62,862 nt of DNA from a virus. A program made the translations under genes and the position numbers. The stretch is from positions 1 to 62,862 of IMG/VR virus record IMGVR_UViG_3300047678_000246; one strand, written 5' to 3'. Position 1 is the stretch's first letter; the number at the start of each line of letters is the position of its first letter. The notes below the pieces were generated by a model. It had not been told where the DNA came from, searched no databases, and worked only from the letters and a program-made list of their open reading frames with translations. Below, in pieces: positions 2,180 to 62,572 of the stretch.

Positions 2180-2893
2180 ATGGAATACTACCAAATCATC
2201 ACTGATGAAAAGAAGTTAGATGATTTTCTAACTTTTCTTCCAGAAATTGATGAGGATACTGAGGTTTACTACCTCTCGTTATTTGGTAGGCACAAGTATT
2301 GTAAAGAATTTCCTAATATGAGGGATGATAGTCAGTTGGCCCGATTTACTTCTCGACGGAGTGAATTGAAGCAAAAGATTATGCGGCTTCAGTGTCCAGT
2401 TGGAAGTTGGCACAGGGATGGTAATCCAGTTCCTCAGGAAGCACTGGCTCTGTATATGGCGTATAACCCTAGATTGCTGGCCAAAGCGAACAGGGAGTTA
2501 CTAATAGAGCTTGCACGAAGGATTACCAAGAATGATCTAAACTTTAATCCTATCAGTTTAGCTACAACTAAGGTGCACAGAGCAGTTAGCCGCAAGTTTT
2601 TTGTGGACTTTGATTTTGATGATGTTAAGCCAGAAGAGAAACTGCCACATATATTACAAATCTTTGACAAAGACCATTTTAAAATTTTGGTGACACGAGG
2701 TGGTTTTCATCTTATTGTAATGCTTGACAAAGTGAGACATCAAAAAGATAACTGGTATACTAAGGTGACCAATTTGGGTGGATGTGATGTTAAAGGTAGT
2801 AATACTATGGCGCCAGTTCCTGGGTGTATTCAAGGTGGATTCACTCCGTATTTTCTTTTTGACAAAGTGTTTGCTAACAAAGAGGGAAAGTAA
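2180..2893 (+). CDS. Possible AEP (primase)-like protein
   Basis: A 237-residue protein. FFVDFDFDD (about residues 139-147) followed some 30 residues later by TRGGFHLIV looks like motifs I (hhDhD) and II (sxH) of archaeo-eukaryotic primases. A clear third acidic motif is not obvious, and the protein ends early for a full PrimPol. It could be a truncated or diverged AEP, or an unrelated protein. A DnaG-type primase is separately encoded at 33906. The ATG at 2180 is chosen over the upstream one at 2150, which overlaps the previous gene. Confidence 0.35.
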   Translation: MEYYQIITDEKKLDDFLTFLPEIDEDTEVYYLSLFGRHKYCKEFPNMRDDSQLARFTSRRSELKQKIMRLQCPVGSWHRDGNPVPQEALALYMAYNPRLLAKANRELLIELARRITKNDLNFNPISLATTKVHRAVSRKFFVDFDFDDVKPEEKLPHILQIFDKDHFKILVTRGGFHLIVMLDKVRHQKDNWYTKVTNLGGCDVKGSNTMAPVPGCIQGGFTPYFLFDKVFANKEGK

Positions 2894-3289
2894 ATGGACT
2901 CTCATGAGTTGAAGTATCTCCAAACCTCCCGTAATCAAACTGAAGCTTTGCACACCAATGCTAAAGCTAAGATGGTAGAAGCTCAACACGAGATGGAAGC
3001 GTATAAAAGTAAGATGGTTGAAGCACAAAGGGAAATGGAAAGACATAAGAAGAATCTTAAACACATTGATGATATGATTTCCAATTTGCAAAAGAAAGTT
3101 GTAGTTAGCGAACACGCAATACTTAGGTATTTTGAACGTGTTCTCGGATTTGATCTTGATACCATTAGAAAGAAAGTATTAGATACAAATACTGAGCAGT
3201 TGATCAAGAGTTTGGGCGATGGTTCTTATCCAGTAGAAACTACTCACAAGATTAAAGTTAGAGATAATACCGTAGTCACTATACTGTAA
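2894..3289 (+). CDS. Coiled-coil phage protein
   Basis: Residues 1-75 are a heptad-rich coiled coil containing a near-repeat (KMVEAQxEME twice). The C-terminal part (VVSEHAILRYFERVLG..LDTIRKKVL) matches a small domain often seen in phage proteins of unknown function. The start codon directly follows the previous stop, so the two genes are probably translated together. Confidence 0.6.
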   Translation: MDSHELKYLQTSRNQTEALHTNAKAKMVEAQHEMEAYKSKMVEAQREMERHKKNLKHIDDMISNLQKKVVVSEHAILRYFERVLGFDLDTIRKKVLDTNTEQLIKSLGDGSYPVETTHKIKVRDNTVVTIL

Positions 3290-3313
3290 TTGGTTGAGCA
3301 AGAGTTACAACAA

Positions 3314-3643
3314 ATGAATAAAAAACAGTTACGAGATGATTTTCGTAAGGCGGTTTTTCAACGTGATAATAACAAATGTGTTATGTGTGGTCGATCTGCA
3401 GGAAAGTTAGACGCTCATCATATAACTGATAGACACGAGATGCCAAACGGTGGATATGTATTAGAGAATGGAATCACTCTTTGTGCAGACGACAGCTATG
3501 GAGGTATCGATAATTGTCATTGGAAGGCAGAGAGATTTCATGCTACTGGATATTCTCACTTAGGGTATAGTCCCAAAGATCTATACAATAAGATTGGTTC
3601 TTCTCAAGAGTTGGCAATCCAAAAGTCTAAGGAGTTAGAATGA
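3314..3643 (+). CDS. HNH endonuclease
   Basis: RKAVFQRDNNKCVMCG with DAHHI and ENGITLC...NCHWKAE is a standard HNH nuclease with CxxC zinc ligands. It has about 109 residues from the ATG at 3314. A TTG at 3290 in the same frame is possible but has no ribosome site. It may be a free homing endonuclease or a packaging-type HNH. No terminase lies nearby, so the first is more likely. Confidence 0.75.
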   Translation: MNKKQLRDDFRKAVFQRDNNKCVMCGRSAGKLDAHHITDRHEMPNGGYVLENGITLCADDSYGGIDNCHWKAERFHATGYSHLGYSPKDLYNKIGSSQELAIQKSKELE

Positions 3644-3927
3644 GAAGGTTAATTGCTTTTACAGCTTTGATTATTATGATTATTGGATGTTCCAATTCTA
3701 ATGATGATGTACAATGGAAGAGAGGGACTGTTAAAGTTTTACATATCAATTCTATGTATAGTAAAGTGGCATATTACGAATTACGTGCTATAGTTGAGTT
3801 ACCTGGTGGAGAGCGAAAGAACTTAGAGGTTAAACATAATCTTCCAGTGAGTGGTGAAACATGGCAAGTGGATATTAAAAATAACACTGGAAAATTCGTG
3901 GAGAGAATCAAAGACAAGGAGAAGTAA
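3640..3927 (+). CDS. Small lipoprotein
   Basis: MRRLIAFTALIIMIIGCS is a short basic start, a hydrophobic stretch and a lipobox-like IIGC, followed by a polar 75-residue domain. It would be lipid-anchored at Cys17. Phage lipoproteins sometimes act in superinfection exclusion, but nothing here shows that. The start overlaps the HNH stop. Confidence 0.6.
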   Translation: MRRLIAFTALIIMIIGCSNSNDDVQWKRGTVKVLHINSMYSKVAYYELRAIVELPGGERKNLEVKHNLPVSGETWQVDIKNNTGKFVERIKDKEK

Positions 3928-4508: not shown

Positions 4509-4901
4509 AAAGCCATGTTAGAACAAGATTATTCTAACAACGAACTTCGATTAGTTTACGCAGATTGGTTGGAAGATCAAGGAAATACTGAACTCGCATA
4601 CTGTCAAAGATGGATGGCATTACATAACAAAAGACCAGAAGAGGCAGAGGATTATTGGCTTTGGCGTAACCCATTCAATTGTTTTGGTGAAGTTCATTCA
4701 ACTTTGTATTCAGTTGTATACGATGCTCTAAGAGGATATAAAAGACATTTCAACACTGCTTATAATTCTAGATGGGAAGCAGAAGCTTCTTTGTGTGATG
4801 TGCTAACAGAAATGCTATCAGTACTAAACCTTTCAAAAATTGTTAAAGTGGATGATTTAGATGAGGAAAGAAGAGAAGCAACACCTTGGCGAAAAGTGTG
4901 A
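4485..4901 (+). CDS. TIGR02996 repeat-companion domain-like protein
   Basis: AMLEQDYSNNELRLVYADWLEDQGN is close to the TIGR02996 domain as I remember it (L.A...P.DD..RLVYADWLEE.GD), a planctomycete-associated domain named from Gemmata. The gene probably began at ATG 4453, behind an AGGATA site, but the 20-bp duplication puts that start out of frame. A protein could still be made from TTG 4485 or ATG 4515, which keeps the whole domain. Function of the domain is unknown. Confidence 0.6.
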   Translation: MVGSIETWKAMLEQDYSNNELRLVYADWLEDQGNTELAYCQRWMALHNKRPEEAEDYWLWRNPFNCFGEVHSTLYSVVYDALRGYKRHFNTAYNSRWEAEASLCDVLTEMLSVLNLSKIVKVDDLDEERREATPWRKV

Positions 4902-5067
4902 TATTGAAGTTACAGTGCGAGAACAATGGGCCCACGACATACTACTGTGTTTTTTAGATAATGATGGATTGCAAAGTGAATATGAGTATGATGATAACGA
5001 ACAGAAGTTAGTAGATCAAGCGGTAAGGATTGCAGATAAACTAATCGCCACACTTTCTAAAAAGTAA
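4861..5067 (+). CDS. Hypothetical acidic protein
   Basis: Sixty-eight residues (MRKEEKQHLG...KLIATLSKK). The reading overlaps the previous gene by 41 bases. A GTG at 4915 would avoid the overlap. Not recognised. Confidence 0.45.
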   Translation: MRKEEKQHLGEKCDIEVTVREQWAHDILLCFLDNDGLQSEYEYDDNEQKLVDQAVRIADKLIATLSKK

Positions 5068-25424: not shown

Positions 25425-25814
25425 ATGAAAGCTAAGCTACCGAACGGTATGAATGTTCAAGTTGGTGTTCGTCACACTACTGATGAGCTTCCTAATCATG
25501 AACATCCTGGTGAATCTATTGTATGTAGAAGCACCCACGTTCTGCTAACTTTAGAAGATGGTGTGGATTTTGCAGCACGTGCAATTTGTAAGCCGCCTGA
25601 TCAGTTCTGTAAGCGAGATGGCCGTAGACGTGCGGCAGATCGTCTTCTTCAAAACTTAAAGTTCATTCTTCCTTCTAAAGAAGATCGTAGAGCAGTCTTC
25701 CAAATGGTTTGCCCAGAATATAGTCAAAATAGTCCCCGTAGAGAAAGACGAAAGTTGCGTCGTAGAAATTGGTATCTACGATCTCTTCAAAAAGCTTCTC
25801 CGGAGGAAAAGTAA
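25425..25814 (+). CDS. Hypothetical basic protein
   Basis: 129 residues. The C-terminal 30 residues are very basic (RRERRKLRRRNWYLRS), suggesting nucleic-acid binding. GAGGAGG precedes the start. Not recognised. Confidence 0.5.
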   Translation: MKAKLPNGMNVQVGVRHTTDELPNHEHPGESIVCRSTHVLLTLEDGVDFAARAICKPPDQFCKRDGRRRAADRLLQNLKFILPSKEDRRAVFQMVCPEYSQNSPRRERRKLRRRNWYLRSLQKASPEEK

Positions 25815-25816
25815 AT

Positions 25817-26185
25817 ATGTCTGAATGGAAACAAGAGGATTTGATCTTATCAGAAGAAAATGTTTTGCGTAAGTTCCAAAATGCTGTAGATGAACTAGCG
25901 GCAAAAGGAGAAACAGCAGATGATATCGCTAAAGCATTGATAGAAGATGGGTGTCAAACTCACACAGCAATGTCTACATGTATGTGTCCAGTGGGCAGAT
26001 GGATTTGGCATAGAATACCATGGAAGTACAGTAAAGGGTTTTCTTTCCAAGTAGGGAGGTTAGGCGTGGGAGAAGGATACCGACAACAACTAACTTTTCC
26101 AGAACAGATTCAAAACTTCATAAAAGGTTTTGATACTGGAAGTTACAAACAATTATGGACGACTAAAGTTTGTGTGCCTGATTAA
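25817..26185 (+). CDS. Hypothetical protein
   Basis: 122 residues from ATG 25817, which follows GGAGGAAAAG. CMCPVGRWIWHRIPW contains two cysteines; no known family. Confidence 0.5.
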   Translation: MSEWKQEDLILSEENVLRKFQNAVDELAAKGETADDIAKALIEDGCQTHTAMSTCMCPVGRWIWHRIPWKYSKGFSFQVGRLGVGEGYRQQLTFPEQIQNFIKGFDTGSYKQLWTTKVCVPD

Positions 26186-26191
26186 ACATTA

Positions 26192-28636
26192 ATGTTAACC
26201 CAACCATTTTCATATCAAGAAGAAGATATCCGTAGAATAGAAGAATTCAACGGAAGATGTCTTCTTGGTTTGGAGATGGGTCTTGGGAAATCTCTTGAAT
26301 CATTAGTCTATTGCTTAGATCATCCAAATTTACGTCCAGTAGTAGTTGTCTGTCCTAAAAGTCTAAAATACAATTGGGAGAAAGAAGCCCGAATACACGT
26401 AGGTTTAAAAGCAGTAGTTTTGGAACATGCTAAGCCCCCTGGTAAGAACATACCTTACCAGGGGGACATTTACGTTATAAACTACGATATTCTTGGTGGA
26501 TGGTTATCAGTATTAAAAAAAATCAAACCAAAAATAGTAATTGCTGATGAATGTTTTCCATTTAACACCCCAGTGTTAACCGATAGGGGTTGGTTACATA
26601 TCGGGGAAATTGTAGAAAATCAGTTAGAAATATCAATTGCTTCATATTCTTTTGCTAAAAAAAGGGTTGAGTTTAAACCGATTACCCATTATATTAAGAA
26701 TAGAATAGGTAGTCTTAGAATGGTAAAAGTGAGCCATGAAAATGGCTCACTTACCTGTACTGAAAATCATAAAATATGGACGGAGAATAGAGGTTATGTC
26801 CAAGCGATTGAATTACGAAGCGGTGACAAACTGCGTTTGGTGCGGGGAAAAATTTCCGGAGGGGAAGAAAAAAAGATTCTGCAACAACACCTGCTCTGGA
26901 AATTGGTGGAAGGCGCAAACCCCAGTAAACAAATTCCCTTGCGGGTGGTGCCAAAAAGAAATAGTAACGAGAGGATCATCCACAAAAAGATTCTGCTGTC
27001 CGTCGTGCGCATGTTCATGGAGGATGACTCAACCAGAAATACGAGAAAAAGTGTACACAAAAGAAACTGTAGAAAAAATAAAAAAAGGGATTGCAGAATA
27101 TCAAAAATCAGAAAAAGCAAAATTAGATTCTTTAAACAGATCCAAAAGAATGACAGAAAACAATCCAGTCCACATGGATGGTGTGGTGGGAAAAATATTA
27201 CAAACCAGAGAACGGAACGGGAATTTGCATGTTTGGACTGGCAAACGTGGGGGGAATGGGAAAATTACCAAACAAGAAAAAATATTGTTAGAAGCATTAG
27301 GAGAAAATTGGAAATCCCCACTTCCAGTTCCTACGCATCAAAAAGCAGGATCAGGATTTCCAACATGTTACAAAATAGATGTTGGAAATCAACTATTCAT
27401 GTTGGGAATAGAAATAGATGGGAACGGTCACAAAAATTTGAATTCCCAAACAAACGATCAAAAAAAACAAATGTTTTTAGAATCTCAAGGGTGGAAAATG
27501 TTAAGGTTTTGGAATCACGAAATAGACAACGATCTGACGAATGTTTTGAGCAAAATCAATTCGTATACTGTCTCGAAATAGCGGATAACCATAATTTCTT
27601 TGCAGATGGAGTATTAGTATCAAATTGTCAATACATCCGTGCCATTAAAGGAGTCAAACGGGTAAAATATTTCAAAGAGCTATGCCAAGGAGTCCCTCAC
27701 GTTCTGGCACTTAGCGGTACACCATTAGTTAACCGACCCGCCGAATTATGGAATGTAATTAATCTATTAAGGCCAGATGTATTTGACAGTTGGGTTGATT
27801 TTGCCCCAAGATATTGTGCTCCAAGACTTACTAGATGGGGGTTGGTTTATGATGGAGCAGAAAACTTAGACGAGCTTAATCAACGCCTCGTCTCTTCATG
27901 CATGATTAGAAGGTTGAAATCCGAAGTACTTACAGACCTTCCTCCAAAATCCCGTTTCGTCGTTCCTCTTCCATTAGAAAAACCAAAAGAATATCAGTTA
28001 GCCAAAACCGATTTTTTGAAATGGTTGGCTCAGGTAAATCCTAAAAAAGTCAAAAGAGCAAAAAGAGCTCTTGCATTAGTCAAACTCAATTACTTACTCC
28101 AGTTAGCCGCTAAACTCAAATTAAATTCAGTCTTTGAATGGATAGATAATTTTCTAGAAGATTCAGTAGGTAAGATACTATTATTTTGCACCCACAAAAA
28201 CACTTTAGATTTATTAGTTGACAGATATAAAGATCAATGCGTTTTTATTGATGGCAGTGTATCTGGAACGAAAAGACAATTAGCAGTTGACCAGTTTCAA
28301 AATAATAAAAAGACACGTGTTTTCGTTGGTAATGTAGTTGCGGCGGGAACAGGATTAACACTTACAGCTGCTTCGACAGTGGCATTCGTAGAATTAGATT
28401 GGGTTCCCGCCAACATGACACAATGCGAGGACAGAGTTCATAGAATTGGGCAGAAAAATAACGTCCAGATTTACTATCTAGTTGCGCATAACACTATAGA
28501 AGAAAAACTTTGTGAGATACTTCAAGATAAACAAAAGGTGTTGGATGCGGTACTAGATGGTAAAATTGATGGCTCAGGAACCTTAGATGTTTATGATGAA
28601 TTGGAACGTGAATTACACAGGAGTTTTTCAGTATGA
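26192..28636 (+). CDS. SNF2-type superfamily 2 helicase containing an intein
   Basis: Extein helicase motifs: I (LGLEMGLGKSLESL, 26-39), II (VIADE-CQ, split by the intein after residue 120), III (ALSGTPLVNRP), then IV-VI in the second lobe (LLFCTHKNTLD, VAAGTGLTL, QCEDRVHRIGQ). The mature protein is about 456 residues, like the compact phage SMARCAL1/UvsW-like translocases that remodel replication forks. The intein (26552-27625) interrupts the DEAH-type box, so the enzyme is inactive until spliced. No obvious ribosome site precedes the ATG. Confidence 0.85.
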   Translation: MLTQPFSYQEEDIRRIEEFNGRCLLGLEMGLGKSLESLVYCLDHPNLRPVVVVCPKSLKYNWEKEARIHVGLKAVVLEHAKPPGKNIPYQGDIYVINYDILGGWLSVLKKIKPKIVIADECFPFNTPVLTDRGWLHIGEIVENQLEISIASYSFAKKRVEFKPITHYIKNRIGSLRMVKVSHENGSLTCTENHKIWTENRGYVQAIELRSGDKLRLVRGKISGGEEKKILQQHLLWKLVEGANPSKQIPLRVVPKRNSNERIIHKKILLSVVRMFMEDDSTRNTRKSVHKRNCRKNKKRDCRISKIRKSKIRFFKQIQKNDRKQSSPHGWCGGKNITNQRTEREFACLDWQTWGEWENYQTRKNIVRSIRRKLEIPTSSSYASKSRIRISNMLQNRCWKSTIHVGNRNRWERSQKFEFPNKRSKKTNVFRISRVENVKVLESRNRQRSDECFEQNQFVYCLEIADNHNFFADGVLVSNCQYIRAIKGVKRVKYFKELCQGVPHVLALSGTPLVNRPAELWNVINLLRPDVFDSWVDFAPRYCAPRLTRWGLVYDGAENLDELNQRLVSSCMIRRLKSEVLTDLPPKSRFVVPLPLEKPKEYQLAKTDFLKWLAQVNPKKVKRAKRALALVKLNYLLQLAAKLKLNSVFEWIDNFLEDSVGKILLFCTHKNTLDLLVDRYKDQCVFIDGSVSGTKRQLAVDQFQNNKKTRVFVGNVVAAGTGLTLTAASTVAFVELDWVPANMTQCEDRVHRIGQKNNVQIYYLVAHNTIEEKLCEILQDKQKVLDAVLDGKIDGSGTLDVYDELERELHRSFSV
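26435..26465 (+). repeat. Perfect inverted repeat in the helicase gene, 12-bp arms
   Basis: CCCCCTGGTAAG (26435-26446), loop AACATAC, CTTACCAGGGGG (26454-26465). No T-run follows. A second one (11-bp arms, GAAA loop) is at 26727-26752 in the intein. Confidence 0.85.
26552..27625 (+). mobile_element. Intein in the helicase DExx box
   Basis: Starts with Cys (CFPFNTPVLTDRGWLHIGEI, block A), has block B GSLTCTENHKIWTE, the LRSGDKLRLV stretch, and ends with block F VYCLEIADNHNFFADG and block G VLVSN before Cys+1. 358 residues. The region between about 26820 and 27560 in this frame is a Lys/Arg-rich sequence with no known domain. It is the wrong-frame reading of a homing endonuclease gene (26796-27581). 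The penultimate residue is Ser instead of His. Confidence 0.85.
26796..27581 (+). CDS. Vsr-like homing endonuclease nested in the intein, +1 frame
   Basis: 261 residues from ATG 26796 (AGAGG in front); the frame is open from 26736. Two zinc knuckles (CVWCGEKF...RFCNNTC and CGWCQKEI...RFCCPSC), a helical linker, then LGIEIDGNGHKN...QTNDQKKQMFLESQGWKMLRFWNHEI, the catalytic core of the Vsr/EDxHD homing nucleases found in phages (I-Bth0305I relatives). It stops inside block F of the intein. So it takes the place of the usual in-frame endonuclease domain but reads one base off from the intein. Confidence 0.8.
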   Translation: MSKRLNYEAVTNCVWCGEKFPEGKKKRFCNNTCSGNWWKAQTPVNKFPCGWCQKEIVTRGSSTKRFCCPSCACSWRMTQPEIREKVYTKETVEKIKKGIAEYQKSEKAKLDSLNRSKRMTENNPVHMDGVVGKILQTRERNGNLHVWTGKRGGNGKITKQEKILLEALGENWKSPLPVPTHQKAGSGFPTCYKIDVGNQLFMLGIEIDGNGHKNLNSQTNDQKKQMFLESQGWKMLRFWNHEIDNDLTNVLSKINSYTVSK

Positions 28637-28875
28637 CAACAAGATCTATTCTAGAATGCGATAAGTGCGGAAAAGAATGTAAATTTGATTCCATTTGGGC
28701 AAAAATAGACAGAAAAATGGATGCCGCCGGAAGTATGGACGACGACCATGTAAGAGTGGATTTATGTGATAAATGCATGCACACAATTATGAAAATTCTA
28801 GTCCAGAAAATGGATTTTGATGAAGCAAAAATATTTGTCGCACTTGCAAGAGTTAAATCCCCCGCTAATAATTAA
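28633..28875 (+). CDS. Zinc-binding small protein
   Basis: CDKCGKEC at residues 9-16 and CDKC near 45 give a zinc-ribbon pattern in 80 residues. ATGA overlap with the helicase stop. Last gene before promoter motif copy 7. Confidence 0.55.
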   Translation: MTTRSILECDKCGKECKFDSIWAKIDRKMDAAGSMDDDHVRVDLCDKCMHTIMKILVQKMDFDEAKIFVALARVKSPANN

Positions 28876-29591: not shown

Positions 29592-32243
29592 ATGGGTGTG
29601 TTGGTTACTGATTTCAAATTGGATTTCTGGTTGGAACACGATCTCAACGTTCTATTCACTGGACATCATGGTGTTGGAAAAACTGCGATGGTGTGTGCGT
29701 GTTTTGAACGATATGGTTTAGTGAAAAATGAAGATTATCTATACTTCAGTGCGGCTACATTAGATCCCTGGGTGGATTTTATTGGTGTTCCCAAAGAAGT
29801 TAAAGATGATGATGGTATTAGTTATTTGGAAATGATCCTACCTAAGAGATTAGCAAAAGGGAAAATCAAAGCTATTTTCCTTGATGAGTTCAATCGCTGC
29901 ATTTCAGGTGACACTAAAATACCCCTCCTAGATGGGTCTCTAACAAAAATCAAAGATTTGGTAGAAAAGGATTCATTTTATGTGTATAGTTATGACACAA
30001 AACTACAAAAAATAGTTATCGGCCGCGGGCATTCTGCTAGATGCACTCTACAAAATCAACAATTAATCAAAATAACATTAGACAATGGACAATGTATTAG
30101 ATGCACTTTAGATCATCCAATTATGACAAGAAATGGCGAATATAAAATTGCTTCTGATTTAGTAGTTGGCGAATCTCTAATGCCTTTACATAGAAGAATA
30201 AATAATAGATATGAACAGGTTTTACAACCAAACAGGAAAAATAACAAATGGCAATACACACATTGGCTTTCTGATGAGTTTAATCTGCTTAACAATAAAT
30301 ATTGTTGCGTAGATGAACGTATACAACGACATCATCTAGATAAAAACACATTAAACAATATTCCAGAGAACATTATAAGAGTTCACATTAATGATCATTT
30401 AGCAGTTTATCGCAGTAGTGATGGTGGTACAAATGCACATAAAAACCATCCAGATCTTTCTTTTAGATCAATGCTATCAAAGGAAGGAATGAAAAAAGCA
30501 CATACAAATTCGGCTAAAACAAGGCAAATAAGTCAATCGTACAAAAAAATCAGATCAGAACTTTCTAAAAATTATTTTTCTACAGATGGGGCAAAAGAAG
30601 CGCAAGCTAATAACTGCAAAAACGGTTGGGAGAATGGACAGTTTGATTTTAATCAAACTATAGCTCACGAAAAAATGTACAAAACCAAATGTATAAATTT
30701 TGGTTTGACTCTAATAACAAAAGGTATCAAGCTAACTCCTGAATCATATTCTTTTGAAAGGTCTTTAATCAAAGGAAAAGGTAACGCACCACCTAAATTA
30801 GAAAAACTACTATCATATTTTGGCACATTTGATAACTACTTATTGTTTGTACAAAGTAAAAACAACCATAAAATCGTTTCTATCGAACTTGATGGGGTTG
30901 AAGATGTGTACGATATGACTGTAGATAATTATCATAATTTCGCTACTGAATGTGGTGTGTTTGTTCACAACTCACCATCAAAAGTCCGCAATGCAGTTAT
31001 GGAATTGCAACAATTTAAATCTATCAATGGTAGATTATTTCCTAATCTTAAAGTGATTTGGGCAGCTCAAAATCCAGTAGATGAAGAAGAAACTTATAAC
31101 GTCGAAAAAATTGATCCTGCCCAAGACGATCGATTTCATGTTCGAGTGGAAATTCCATATCGTCCTAGTGTAACATATTTCACCAAGGTGTATGGACCTA
31201 AAATTGCATCTGGGTCTATTGAATGGTGGAATGGGTTACCAGCAGAAGTGAAGAAAGAAGTCTCTCCAAGAAGATTAGAATATGCACTTAAAATGCATAA
31301 GATTAAAGGTGATCTTCACGATATTCTTCCAGATAGTTGTGGTATCAAAAAATTACTGTATGTGTTGGAGAGTGAACCAGTAGAAGAAGTTTTGAAAAAA
31401 TATCTTATCCAAAAGAATAAAGACGCTGCTATTGCATACCTAAGTAACGAAAACCATTACGAAATGGCTATTAACCATATTCTAAAACAACCAAACTTTA
31501 GAGAATACTTTCTACCATTAATTCCTTCGGAAAAACTATCTTGTTTGATGTCAGAAGACAAAGCATTAGCGAAATATGTGGTTGTAAAATCTGATTCAGT
31601 TCCAATATTCAAACAAGTAACAGAAGAGATTTTACAAGTAAACAGTAACAAACCTCTTTGCGCGTATTTAAACGAAGTGTTAAAAACATGCCTAAAAAAC
31701 GGGCCTGTTATTACTATTCCTCCACATTTTAGCACTAAACCTTCAGATCACAAGCCATGGGCACAACAGTTAGCTATGATGAAAAACTGGCCTATGGGAA
31801 CACCCCAATACAGAAACAATGCATACGATCGTGTTTTAAATAACGTTCCTGCAAAACTTACTTGGGAGGAAGTTAAATGGACACTAGATGTTATTAACAA
31901 CATCTTTGAACATTCCTTTCCAGTCGCCATTTCAACAAGAATGAAAAGCCTAGTTGGAGTTGTAAACCATTGTGCTAATCAACTTTCAAAATCAGTTGAA
32001 CTAGGTTGGTACGATATTATTGAAGATCTTAACTCTAAAGGGGCATATAATAGCCTGATCTCTAAAATTCAAGACGCTGGTTTCACCCTTCCAGAAAAGG
32101 TTGTAAAAGACGGTGATGGTAATACTATCAAAACGATTAAATTTGTTGATCCAAAAACAGCAACGATAAAAGATTTGTTTCCGACAGTAGCTGCTCATGC
32201 AAATTCGTTTGCAAAAGGGGTAGAAGATGTCTTCGACAGCTAA
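29592..32243 (+). CDS. MoxR-type AAA+ ATPase containing an intein
   Basis: Walker A VLFTGHHGVGKTAM near the N-terminus, Walker B IKAIFLDEFNR, interrupted by the intein immediately after, then SPSKVRNAVMELQQFK and KVIWAAQNP (sensor 1) of the AAA+ core. The extein totals about 525 residues, longer than MoxR because of a helical C-terminal region. MoxR ATPases act with vWA-domain proteins as chaperones or metal-loading factors; such a partner follows. ATG 29592 is preceded by AAGGAG; an earlier in-frame start at 29562 lies inside the previous gene. Confidence 0.8.
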   Translation: MGVLVTDFKLDFWLEHDLNVLFTGHHGVGKTAMVCACFERYGLVKNEDYLYFSAATLDPWVDFIGVPKEVKDDDGISYLEMILPKRLAKGKIKAIFLDEFNRCISGDTKIPLLDGSLTKIKDLVEKDSFYVYSYDTKLQKIVIGRGHSARCTLQNQQLIKITLDNGQCIRCTLDHPIMTRNGEYKIASDLVVGESLMPLHRRINNRYEQVLQPNRKNNKWQYTHWLSDEFNLLNNKYCCVDERIQRHHLDKNTLNNIPENIIRVHINDHLAVYRSSDGGTNAHKNHPDLSFRSMLSKEGMKKAHTNSAKTRQISQSYKKIRSELSKNYFSTDGAKEAQANNCKNGWENGQFDFNQTIAHEKMYKTKCINFGLTLITKGIKLTPESYSFERSLIKGKGNAPPKLEKLLSYFGTFDNYLLFVQSKNNHKIVSIELDGVEDVYDMTVDNYHNFATECGVFVHNSPSKVRNAVMELQQFKSINGRLFPNLKVIWAAQNPVDEEETYNVEKIDPAQDDRFHVRVEIPYRPSVTYFTKVYGPKIASGSIEWWNGLPAEVKKEVSPRRLEYALKMHKIKGDLHDILPDSCGIKKLLYVLESEPVEEVLKKYLIQKNKDAAIAYLSNENHYEMAINHILKQPNFREYFLPLIPSEKLSCLMSEDKALAKYVVVKSDSVPIFKQVTEEILQVNSNKPLCAYLNEVLKTCLKNGPVITIPPHFSTKPSDHKPWAQQLAMMKNWPMGTPQYRNNAYDRVLNNVPAKLTWEEVKWTLDVINNIFEHSFPVAISTRMKSLVGVVNHCANQLSKSVELGWYDIIEDLNSKGAYNSLISKIQDAGFTLPEKVVKDGDGNTIKTIKFVDPKTATIKDLFPTVAAHANSFAKGVEDVFDS
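29898..30971 (+). mobile_element. Intein with HNH endonuclease in the MoxR Walker B region
   Basis: Begins CISGDTKIPLLDGSLTKIKDL, block B QCIRCTLDHPIMTRNGEY, ends VYDMTVDNYHNFATECGVFVHN before Ser+1. 358 residues. RIQRHHLDKNTLNNIPENIIRVHINDHLAVY in the middle is an in-frame HNH endonuclease core, the normal arrangement in contrast to the helicase intein. Confidence 0.85.
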
Positions 32244-60070: not shown

Positions 60071-62572
60071 ATGAATATGAAAGCTTCTACTCCAGAAGCG
60101 TATAAGTTGTTTCATGATGGGGCATTAATATTATCTCAGATCGAACAGAATGGTATTCGTGTAGATACAGAATTGTTAAATGCGACGATAGAAAAGGTTA
60201 ACAAGAAGATTAGGATAAAGAAAGCCAAGTTAGAGAAGACTGAAGTATGGAAGTTATGGCAAGAAGAGTTTGGTAGAAAAGCAAAGATTAGTAGTGGTCC
60301 TCAATTAGCACATATTCTGTATAATAAAATGGGGGTAAAACCAACCAGGTTTACCGCCAAAGGTAGTGATGAGGATCTAGGATTTGGTAAGAGGGATGAT
60401 GGGAAATACAATAAACCATCTACTTCGGAAAAAGCATTACAGGATGTAAACCACCCGTTTGTTCGTGATTTGTTTACTATGAAGGAATATGAGAAAACGG
60501 GAGGTACGTTTTTAAAAGGTATCAGAAGGGAAACAATGGATGGAATTCTCCATCCATTTTTCCATTTACATAGTACAAGAACGTACAGAAGTTCTTCATC
60601 TGATCCTAATTTCCATAATTTCCCAAAAAGAGATGAAACAGCAGCTAACTTAGTAAGGTCTGTGTTTATACCAAGGGAAGGGATGCACTTTTGGGAAACA
60701 GATTTTAAGGGATGTTTTGTAGGCGAAACTTTAGTTGAGACTATTGATGGACCAAGGGAAATCAAGAGCATAGTTGATGGAGTGAATTCTGGTGAGAAGA
60801 TTTATGTATATGGATATGATCATCAGAAACAACGAGTATCAGTGTCTTTTGTAACAAAAGGTGCTATAACAGGAAGAAATGTAGAAGTTTGGAAAGTAGT
60901 GTTGGATAATGGGGAAGAAATTGTTGCTACTAAGAATCATAATTTTATTAAGCGTGATGGTTCGTTTGTTGAGTTAAGGGATCTTGATGTTGGTGACAGT
61001 TTAATGCCTTTCTATAAGAAAAATAAGAGGGGCAAGAAAAAGGATGGTAGTAAGGGAGTCGCTTATATTAAAATTTATTTGAATAATGGGCAGTCGATGT
61101 TGGCCCATAATTTGATTGTAATGGATGTATACAATACAAGGATAACCCAGAATGGATTGGTGGTACATCATATAGATGGAAATGGTATCAATAATAGTTT
61201 AAACAATCTTAAACTAATGACTCGTTCGGAACATATGAGAATCCATTCTTTGCAGGGGTGGGATAGTAAACCGAATGAGAGTGCTGGTAGGGATTTTTCT
61301 TACCAAAAATCAGATGAATTTAAATCTTTGATGAGAGAATTGAATAAAAGAAGAAGAGAAGAATGGACAGAAAAAGATTGGGAAGAATGGCATAAACGCA
61401 TGATGGAGGGTAAGAAAAGAGCAGGGCCAAATGTTGGAGAAAAGAACGGAAGATATGGAAAGCCGTGCAGTGATGAAGTTAAAAGAAACATATCTAATGG
61501 TAGAAAAGGTAAAGGTTTGGGGAAATGGTTGAAAAAAGTCGTTTGTGAGATATGTAAACAAGAATTTGTTGCTTTACATGTTCATTTAAGGCAGATTCAT
61601 AAATTAACATTAAAGGAATACAAAGAGACGTACAATCATAAAGTTGTAAATGTTGAATTTGTTGGCCGTGCCGATGTTTATAATATCACTGTAGAAGGAT
61701 TTCATACTTATGCTTTATCTGCCGGTGTAATAGTTAAGAATTGTGAAGTCGCCGTAGCTTCGGTGGTTACTGGAGACAAAGCTTTAAAAGCTTATGTTAC
61801 AGATAAATCTAAGGATATGCATAAAGATACTGGAGCTGATATCTTTATGCTTCATAGAGATTTAGTAACTAAGAAGCTACGTCACATTTCTAAGAACCAA
61901 TTTGTGTTTGCAGAGTTTTATGGAAGTTATTACAAACAAACTGCAAAAGATATATGGGAATCTGTTTGCAGAGAGAAGGATTTATTATTAGCTGATGGTA
62001 CGCATATTAAGGCGCATTTAGCAAAAAGAGGAATTAAAGAAGGCGGGACATTTGATCCTGAAATAGAAACCAAGAAGGGTACTTTTGAACATCATATCAA
62101 AGAAGTCGAACGTATATTTTGGTATGAACGGTTTCCAGGGTATACTCAATGGAAGAGGGATTGGTACGAGCAGTTTCAGAAGAATGGTGGATTTTACACT
62201 AAGACAGGATTTTGGGTTGGGGGACCCATGTCTAAGAACGCAGTGTTAAACTATCCGGTTCAAGGACCAGCTTTCCATTGTTTACTTTGGTTTCTAATCA
62301 GATTACAGAAATGGTTGAAAAAGAATAAGATGAGGACCACAATAGTTGGTCAAATTCATGATTCTTGTGAAGGTAATTCACCACCTGATGAAATACAGGA
62401 CGTCCTTGGTAAAGTTAACGAATTAGTTTCTGTGGACCTTCCTAAATCGTTTCCTTGGGTCACTGTACCGATGTCCATTGAAGTATCCGTAGCAGATATT
62501 GGTAAGTCTTGGTCCGATATGAAAGAATGGATTGATGTAAATGGTGTATGGCGTCAAAAACCAGAGAAGTAG
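60071..62572 (+). CDS. DNA polymerase I (family A), no exonuclease domain, with an intein
   Basis: 833 residues, 490 after splicing. HSTRTYRSSSSDPNFHNFPKR is the typical Pol I palm entry; motif A reads FWETDFKG-CEVAVAS and is split by the intein at Cys. Then motif B-like RHISKNQFVFAEFYGSYYKQT and motif C VGQIHDSCEGN. No 5' or 3' exonuclease domain; separate genes (43144, 55335) fill these roles. In motif A, CE replaces the usual QIE. Confidence 0.85.
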   Translation: MNMKASTPEAYKLFHDGALILSQIEQNGIRVDTELLNATIEKVNKKIRIKKAKLEKTEVWKLWQEEFGRKAKISSGPQLAHILYNKMGVKPTRFTAKGSDEDLGFGKRDDGKYNKPSTSEKALQDVNHPFVRDLFTMKEYEKTGGTFLKGIRRETMDGILHPFFHLHSTRTYRSSSSDPNFHNFPKRDETAANLVRSVFIPREGMHFWETDFKGCFVGETLVETIDGPREIKSIVDGVNSGEKIYVYGYDHQKQRVSVSFVTKGAITGRNVEVWKVVLDNGEEIVATKNHNFIKRDGSFVELRDLDVGDSLMPFYKKNKRGKKKDGSKGVAYIKIYLNNGQSMLAHNLIVMDVYNTRITQNGLVVHHIDGNGINNSLNNLKLMTRSEHMRIHSLQGWDSKPNESAGRDFSYQKSDEFKSLMRELNKRRREEWTEKDWEEWHKRMMEGKKRAGPNVGEKNGRYGKPCSDEVKRNISNGRKGKGLGKWLKKVVCEICKQEFVALHVHLRQIHKLTLKEYKETYNHKVVNVEFVGRADVYNITVEGFHTYALSAGVIVKNCEVAVASVVTGDKALKAYVTDKSKDMHKDTGADIFMLHRDLVTKKLRHISKNQFVFAEFYGSYYKQTAKDIWESVCREKDLLLADGTHIKAHLAKRGIKEGGTFDPEIETKKGTFEHHIKEVERIFWYERFPGYTQWKRDWYEQFQKNGGFYTKTGFWVGGPMSKNAVLNYPVQGPAFHCLLWFLIRLQKWLKKNKMRTTIVGQIHDSCEGNSPPDEIQDVLGKVNELVSVDLPKSFPWVTVPMSIEVSVADIGKSWSDMKEWIDVNGVWRQKPEK
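60713..61741 (+). mobile_element. Intein with HNH endonuclease in polymerase motif A
   Basis: Starts CFVGETLVETIDGPREIKSI, block B EIVATKNHNFIKRDG, HNH core GLVVHHIDGNGINNSLNNLKLMTRSEHMRIH, ends VYNITVEGFHTYALSAGVIVKN before Cys+1. 343 residues, in-frame endonuclease. Penultimate residue is Lys. Confidence 0.85.

Follow-up and report, generated by a model that had tools for sequence, protein, structure and literature searches.

A putative homing endonuclease gene nested in the +1 frame of a phage helicase intein

Introduction

Can one stretch of phage DNA hold an intein in one reading frame and a complete endonuclease gene in another, and if so, are both frames maintained? Inteins have been described as carrying the endonuclease as a fused domain (PMC3943268) or as having lost it. 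The question is raised by a locus in a single metagenomic virus record, IMG/VR record IMGVR_UViG_3300047678_000246, of which positions 1-62,862 were analyzed; this whole stretch of 62,862 nucleotides is called the window. The original prediction, made from the sequence alone, was that a complete 261-residue Vsr-like endonuclease with two zinc knuckles lies in the +1 frame within a helicase intein, between splicing blocks at both ends and with its stop in block F, and that both frames are kept.

Results

An endonuclease gene overlaps the helicase intein in the +1 frame

A single uninterrupted helicase-intein frame (ORF 26192..28636, + strand) gave Pfam matches to Intein_splicing (E 1.6e-9), SNF2 (E 9e-26) and Helicase_C (E 1.5e-15). 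The intein (26552-27625, 358 aa; junctions IADE|CFPF...LVSN|CQYIR) interrupts the Walker B motif of the SNF2 helicase between its Glu and Cys (IADE|C), and splicing blocks were found at either end of it. A second ORF, 26736..27581, is the endonuclease and lies in +1 relative to the intein frame; its product combines a DUF559 domain (E 2e-11) with two CxxC...C zinc knuckles, and its stop codon (27579-27581) falls in intein block F. No nuclease domain was detected in the intein frame of the window (ORF translation and Pfam). The nuclease domain is located in the +1 frame, and the criterion of a full-length intein, an in-frame endonuclease, is not met. The predicted layout therefore held in the ORF and Pfam data, as did the completeness of the 261-residue Vsr-like product and its two zinc knuckles. 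The features are as follows.

26192..26551, + strand: N-extein, N-terminal part of the SNF2/SF2 helicase to Walker B (...VIADE)
26552..27625, + strand: intein, 358 aa, C1...LVSN|C, open over its full length (PF14890, E 1.6e-9; HINT fold predicted by AlphaFold)
26552..26833, + strand: IntN splicing domain, from block A at C1 through GDKL (26822-26833); pLDDT ~94 for residues 1-98
26727..26752, + strand: perfect 11-bp inverted repeat with a GAAA loop, in the intein coding sequence
26756-26773, + strand: block B (CTENHK), within IntN
26796..27581, + strand: putative EDxHD/Vsr-like homing endonuclease gene, 261 aa from ATG 26796, stop TAG 27579-27581
26832..27008, + strand: endonuclease zinc knuckles, CVWC...CNNTC (26832-26894) and CGWC...CCPSC (26940-27008)
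27366..27524, + strand: EDxHD catalytic region (CYKIDVGNQLFMLGIEIDGNGH ... GWKMLRFWNHEI), residues invariant in 46 sequences, predicted fold similar to I-Bth0305I (3r3p)
27569..27625, + strand: IntC splicing blocks F/G (CLEIADNHNFFADGVLVSN), endonuclease stop within F; pLDDT >90
27626..28636, + strand: C-extein (CQYIRAIKG...), remainder of the helicase

Two further inteins were seen in the window. One, in an AAA-type ATPase (29898-30971, FNR|CISGDT...FVHN|SPSK), has an in-frame HNH-like stretch by eye, no nested ORF, and 30 stops in its +1 frame. The other, in a family A DNA polymerase (60713-61741), has an in-frame HNH domain recognized by Pfam and served as a canonical control from the same genome.

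Intein and endonuclease are each predicted to fold as such

Residues C1, T70, H73, N358 and the +1 Cys are conserved in 40 relatives of the window intein, and the class-1 intein criteria are met (Cys1, block B TxxH, C-terminal Asn, and Cys/Ser/Thr at +1). The residue before the terminal Asn is Ser in the window intein and His in nearly all relatives. AlphaFold predicted a largely confident HINT fold from residues 1-98 and ~307-358 of the window intein, with pLDDT >90 in both halves, while residues 101-306 were mostly disordered; Foldseek matched the predicted structure to the inteins 8ubs, 7cfv and 3ifj. This disorder over the overlap agrees with a segment that is merely kept open. On the strength of these models, the overlapped segment probably resembles a disordered linker between intact splicing halves.

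All 46 sequences compared, the window's among them, share the same EDxHD catalytic residues. The C-terminal domain of the endonuclease was confidently predicted by AlphaFold, and its best match among solved structures was I-Bth0305I (3r3p), an EDxHD homing endonuclease. The nested gene thus meets the criteria of the EDxHD (Vsr-like) family in both its E-D-H-D residues and its fold; cleavage itself is inferred. I-Bth0305I is intron-encoded. The window enzyme, alike in fold, differs in being nested in an intein and in bearing N-terminal zinc knuckles.

Both frames are open across many phage lineages

In the +1 geometry, each intein codon consists of base 3 of an endonuclease codon and bases 1-2 of the next, so that a T-ending endonuclease codon before AA, AG or GA creates an intein-frame stop. 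Over the 261 overlapping codons of the window, the intein frame has no stop and the third sense frame has 22. An exact calculation from the endonuclease protein and window codon usage gave 27.6 expected stops versus 0 observed (P(0) ~1e-17); beside this codon-usage-aware value, the originally estimated chance probability of ~1e-8 was too high. The equivalent relative frame of 22 other window ORFs contained 26-99 stops, with longest open runs of 18-48 codons, and the +1 frames of the two other inteins contained 30-32.

The nested set was collected by pattern searches of viral and genome contigs, and was completed with named phage records and the window. Searches based on the endonuclease yielded 92 nested loci (74 clusters at 80% identity), all in +1 with the intein open, and all flanked in the intein frame by IntN (upstream) and IntC (downstream) wherever the contig extends. 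The insertion site was exactly DE|C...N|C or S in all nested loci but two (L098 and L099, three residues downstream of DE|C). In an intein-query search, 60 of the best 80 loci carried an EDxHD endonuclease, and it was in +1 in 60/60. Considerably more than a hundred phage lineages share the nested architecture, counted as 119 clusters (80% identity) in the union of the endonuclease- and intein-based searches, including Vibrio, Pseudomonas and Corynebacterium phages; every cluster is +1, and DE|C of the helicase is the insertion site in almost all. The helicases of these loci are highly diverse, and GC content ranges between 0.28 and 0.62. A tblastn search of the endonuclease against named phages gave 43 records; the 40 listed were all under a helicase or equivalent CDS, and in the seven named-phage regions examined the endonuclease was unannotated and in +1 of the helicase CDS (7/7). 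In two loci (L044 and L095), one ORF encodes a helicase precursor that combines the intein bearing a nested endonuclease with a second, LAGLIDADG-bearing element.

For the endonuclease-ascertained nested set, 684 stops were expected in the intein frame; that set was recognized by its openness, and its zero stops are partly circular. The 60 intein-ascertained loci with an EDxHD endonuclease had no stop against 745 expected. The intein query lessens the circularity, but only the best 80 of 202 intein matches by score were retained. Codon choice pointed the same way: T occupied endonuclease codon position 3 in 0/3637 cases before AA/AG/GA codons versus 2395/10029 (24%) elsewhere in the nested class, and in 231/788 (29%) versus 437/1443 (30%) in free-standing and split relatives. 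These controls (8 free-standing and 4 split-intein relatives) had 9-31 stops each in that frame, 231 observed against 193 expected. A conserved Tyr-Lys is encoded as TAC(-AAR) in 70/70 readable nested clusters, and the Tyr codon is often TAT in free or split copies. The claim that both frames are maintained thus held, in 74 endonuclease-found clusters and 60 intein-found loci, all in +1 and without an intein-frame stop.

Start signals are enriched near the end of IntN

The predicted ribosome site of the endonuclease was recovered as an SD-like AGAGG before ATG 26796 (duplex -6.6 kcal/mol), although its spacing is tight at only 2 nt. Two further in-frame ATGs upstream (26736 and 26742) both lie inside the perfect 11-bp hairpin, which ends 44 nt before ATG 26796 in a region with a z of -3.8; that this hairpin controls endonuclease translation is possible and no more than a suggestion. 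Across 72 loci, SD pairing of <= -5 kcal/mol was found at 42% of nested starts versus 16% of 725 internal ATGs from the same host genes (p 1.4e-5). The endonuclease starts near intein residue 85-95 (after C1) in many loci and clusters. A D-E-V motif in the start region has GAG as its Glu codon in 14/16 loci versus 52% GAG in exteins (p 0.003), and it therefore embeds the SD sequence GAGGT. RNA near the start was also somewhat more structured across relatives (mean z -0.72 versus ~-0.03 elsewhere). The analysis thus shows that start signals are enriched, that both frames stay open, and that relative frame and insertion site are conserved; translation of the endonuclease is inferred.

Constraint sits in the endonuclease frame

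Synonymous removal of all stops was possible for 73/73 proteins in +1 and for only 6/73 in +2. Stops in +1 are always removable in this way because each T-ending codon has a C-ending synonym, and one frame therefore prevails across diverse helicases and GC contents. Substitutions at positions 1, 2 and 3 of endonuclease codons numbered 1, 0 and 18 between L005 and L010, and 4, 3 and 15 between L007 and L008; endonuclease codon position 3 is intein codon position 1. Since the differences concentrate at endonuclease third positions, the endonuclease appears conserved and the intein segment only kept open. We consider it likely that the sequence constraint sits in the endonuclease frame, with the reservation that close natural pairs are few and dN/dS in both frames is only qualitative. 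The view that both frames are kept is corrected accordingly: the endonuclease frame is constrained, and the intein overlap is open but linker-like. K/R and Pro are scarcer in the overlapped intein segment than expected under synonymous recoding. The effect depends on the codon-usage null, and additional amino-acid selection on this segment cannot be put more strongly than a possibility.

Relatives show a series of architectures

Relatives range from in-frame through nested, split and mini-intein forms to endonucleases standing free beside an intein-less helicase. In four split viral loci (L058, L059, L071 and L073) numerous TAA, TAG and TGA codons interrupt the intein frame, and a helicase-IntN ORF, the endonuclease and an IntC-helicase ORF form three overlapping genes, with the endonuclease in +1 to both intein halves. 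The same endonuclease family occurs in-frame in a thaumarchaeal intein of a radical-SAM protein (L104), and free-standing, directly upstream of an intein-less helicase, in L045, L048, L056, L069 and L077. In Vibrio phages the helicase site of the window intein is taken by mini-inteins that lack an endonuclease, and the intein-less relatives of the window helicase (L130 and L131) read VDECQNIKNN at the insertion site. In a quick tree the split clade adjoins the nested locus L049 (SH-aLRT 95), and AU tests rejected none of the alternative placements (p 0.26 and 0.74). The original prediction had called the locus a step on the way to a split intein, or back; the link to split inteins held, given the four viral loci with the endonuclease between the halves, and the direction is not resolved.

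Several loci of other kinds were noted. The intein-less helicase of L048 has a 4-nt frameshifting stretch at the codon position after DE (4890-4915), which might be a cutting scar or an assembly error. In L136 (Salmonella phage S16) and L140 (Proteus phage PM2), a UvsW-type helicase is split by a DE|C intein whose halves share one frame, and a NUMOD3/TnsA-like endonuclease gene in +2 overlaps both. In L137 (Dickeya phage JA33) the halves of a split helicase intein are separated by a large ORF (2723-3859) on the opposite (minus) strand, putatively an endonuclease. In L191 (1390-2823) and L202/L203 the intein is split or broken and is accompanied by a +1 endonuclease of a different family (TnsA-like; LAGLIDADG_2).

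Other endonuclease families are nested in inteins

The intein-based scan also recovered inteins whose long +1 ORF belongs to another family: HNH enzymes in inteins of the terminase large subunit, and a LAGLIDADG_2 (E 1e-32) in one of a DEAD-type helicase. Further scans gave 11 HNH loci at several terminase sites and 3 distinct LAGLIDADG loci, all in +1 and open. Other HNH relatives had 5-34 stops in that frame, and canonical in-frame LAGLIDADG inteins from the same scan had alternative runs of only 22-38 codons. Single high-GC loci of the HNH and LAGLIDADG families are weaker when taken alone (P(0) 0.002-0.004 for three). The design is repeated by HNH enzymes within terminase inteins and by LAGLIDADG enzymes within helicase inteins, and it therefore likely arose several times.

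The cultured Xanthomonas phage FoX3 (L229, MT161383) has a LAGLIDADG gene (2785-3582) nested in +2 of a helicase DE|C intein. The proposal that +1 is universal across all endonuclease families was rejected on this account.

Discussion

A dual-coded mobile intein is very likely the best explanation of these loci. In the proposed mechanism, one frame would give the helicase precursor, from which the intein would be removed by ordinary class-1 protein splicing, with the ~205 residues across the endonuclease gene forming a disordered loop that joins the splicing halves, both of them intact. Internal initiation near the IntN end would yield, from the +1 frame, an EDxHD/Vsr-like homing endonuclease as a separate protein. 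The most likely target of this enzyme would be the conserved Walker B codons (DE|C) of helicase alleles that lack the intein; repair of the break would copy the intein with its nested gene into the cut allele. Cleavage of the uninvaded allele is inferred because the DE|C site is conserved and empty sites exist. Endonuclease translation, splicing (the window intein having Ser before its terminal Asn), DE|C cleavage and homing are all inferred, without expression, splicing or cleavage data.

Several alternatives were weighed against this mechanism. The intein frame might be open through chance or codon bias, with only the endonuclease or only the intein being real. High-GC loci do give long chance open frames, a few single loci have P(0) of only ~0.03-0.1, and an individual locus could still be accidental; but none of the 684 (endonuclease-ascertained) and 745 (intein-ascertained) expected stops was observed, stop counts are normal in controls with the same endonuclease, and each open frame bears both splicing halves and the Walker B site. 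Chance is thereby refuted for the family and all but excluded overall. An assembly or sequencing frameshift that displaced an ordinary in-frame endonuclease domain is conceivable for a window that is one metagenomic virus record. The arrangement also occurs, however, in the cultured, independently sequenced phages CP-T1, 1.194.O, MR14, phi673 and 159E43, each of which would require two compensating shifts, and the family likewise refutes this explanation, leaving almost no room for it. The findings that had been named beforehand as refuting the prediction (stops in relatives, no start signal, a sequencing frameshift) did not materialize in the nested class.

The nested gene could instead be a relic, the intein splicing while the endonuclease is no longer made or active; HEN decay is common and mini-inteins are known at the same site. 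Against this stand the unchanged EDxHD catalytic residues in 46 sequences, window included, the clustering of differences at endonuclease third codon positions, and the retained start signals, which make a relic very unlikely. Equally improbable is an intein-endonuclease fusion made by programmed ribosomal frameshifting. The sequence does not exclude it and the window start signal is not ideal, but the SD signal is enriched at the start over 72 loci, the start lies near residue 85-95 after C1 in many clusters, and the +1 frame is closed immediately upstream of 26733. Removal at the RNA level, as an intron, would make the protein frame irrelevant, and EDxHD endonucleases do occur in introns too (PMC12350094). 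An intron would need neither the open frame nor the conserved intein catalytic residues, and this option is practically ruled out; an Rfam search of 25800-28700 gave no match even at E<=1.

The dual-coded intein has near precedents. A hidden out-of-frame endonuclease is known from the ShiLan domain, where an HNH is encoded out of frame within a methylase insertion that its authors concluded is no intein (PMC11855218). As here, the insertion leaves the host gene free of stops and conceals a homing endonuclease gene in a different frame; ShiLan, however, has no detectable splicing domain, its HNH lies in the third frame (+2), and no SD was found, whereas the window has a canonical intein as host insertion and its endonuclease in +1. 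Nesting in a canonical intein is thus the difference from the nearest precedent, with possible overlap with a 2025 preprint by Gosselin, Arsenault and Gogarten (10.1101/2025.01.02.630785), cited in PMC11855218 for overlapping frames. That work concerns actinobacteriophage inteins with 'Non-Canonical Architecture' and may describe similar cases; most named nested loci of the present set are not from actinophages. The 'fractured genes' with split inteins and free-standing Vsr-like endonucleases (Dassa et al. 2009, cited in PMC12350094) likewise have an EDxHD/Vsr-like endonuclease between intein halves, as do our four split loci, but the intein of the window, like those of the nested class, is a continuous, unsplit open frame. 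Full-length inteins such as TliVMA and PI-PkoII share the standard position of the endonuclease between the splicing halves; theirs is an in-frame domain, and that of the window would be a separate protein in another frame.

These loci present one DNA stretch that would specify, in overlapping frames, a splicing protein and a separate nuclease over a very large sequence range. They follow an exact, testable rule, that endonuclease codon position 3 is never T before AA, AG or GA, and therefore offer an unusually clean natural system for overlapping genes. They also provide intermediate forms that bear on the unresolved origin of split inteins, which serve as important tools in biotechnology. 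A bolder reading would see recurrent phase-constrained dual coding, with endonucleases of three or more unrelated families (EDxHD, HNH, LAGLIDADG) nested independently, almost always in +1 as the one sense frame from which every stop can be cleared synonymously, and with loss of openness as one route to split inteins with free-standing endonucleases; taken jointly, this could as well prove wrong as right.

A hidden layer of endonucleases is exposed by these searches, annotation having missed the endonuclease in all seven nested records examined. As a separate observation, the FoX3 locus is annotated as helicase in the GenBank record and as 'head morphogenesis' in the RefSeq copy.
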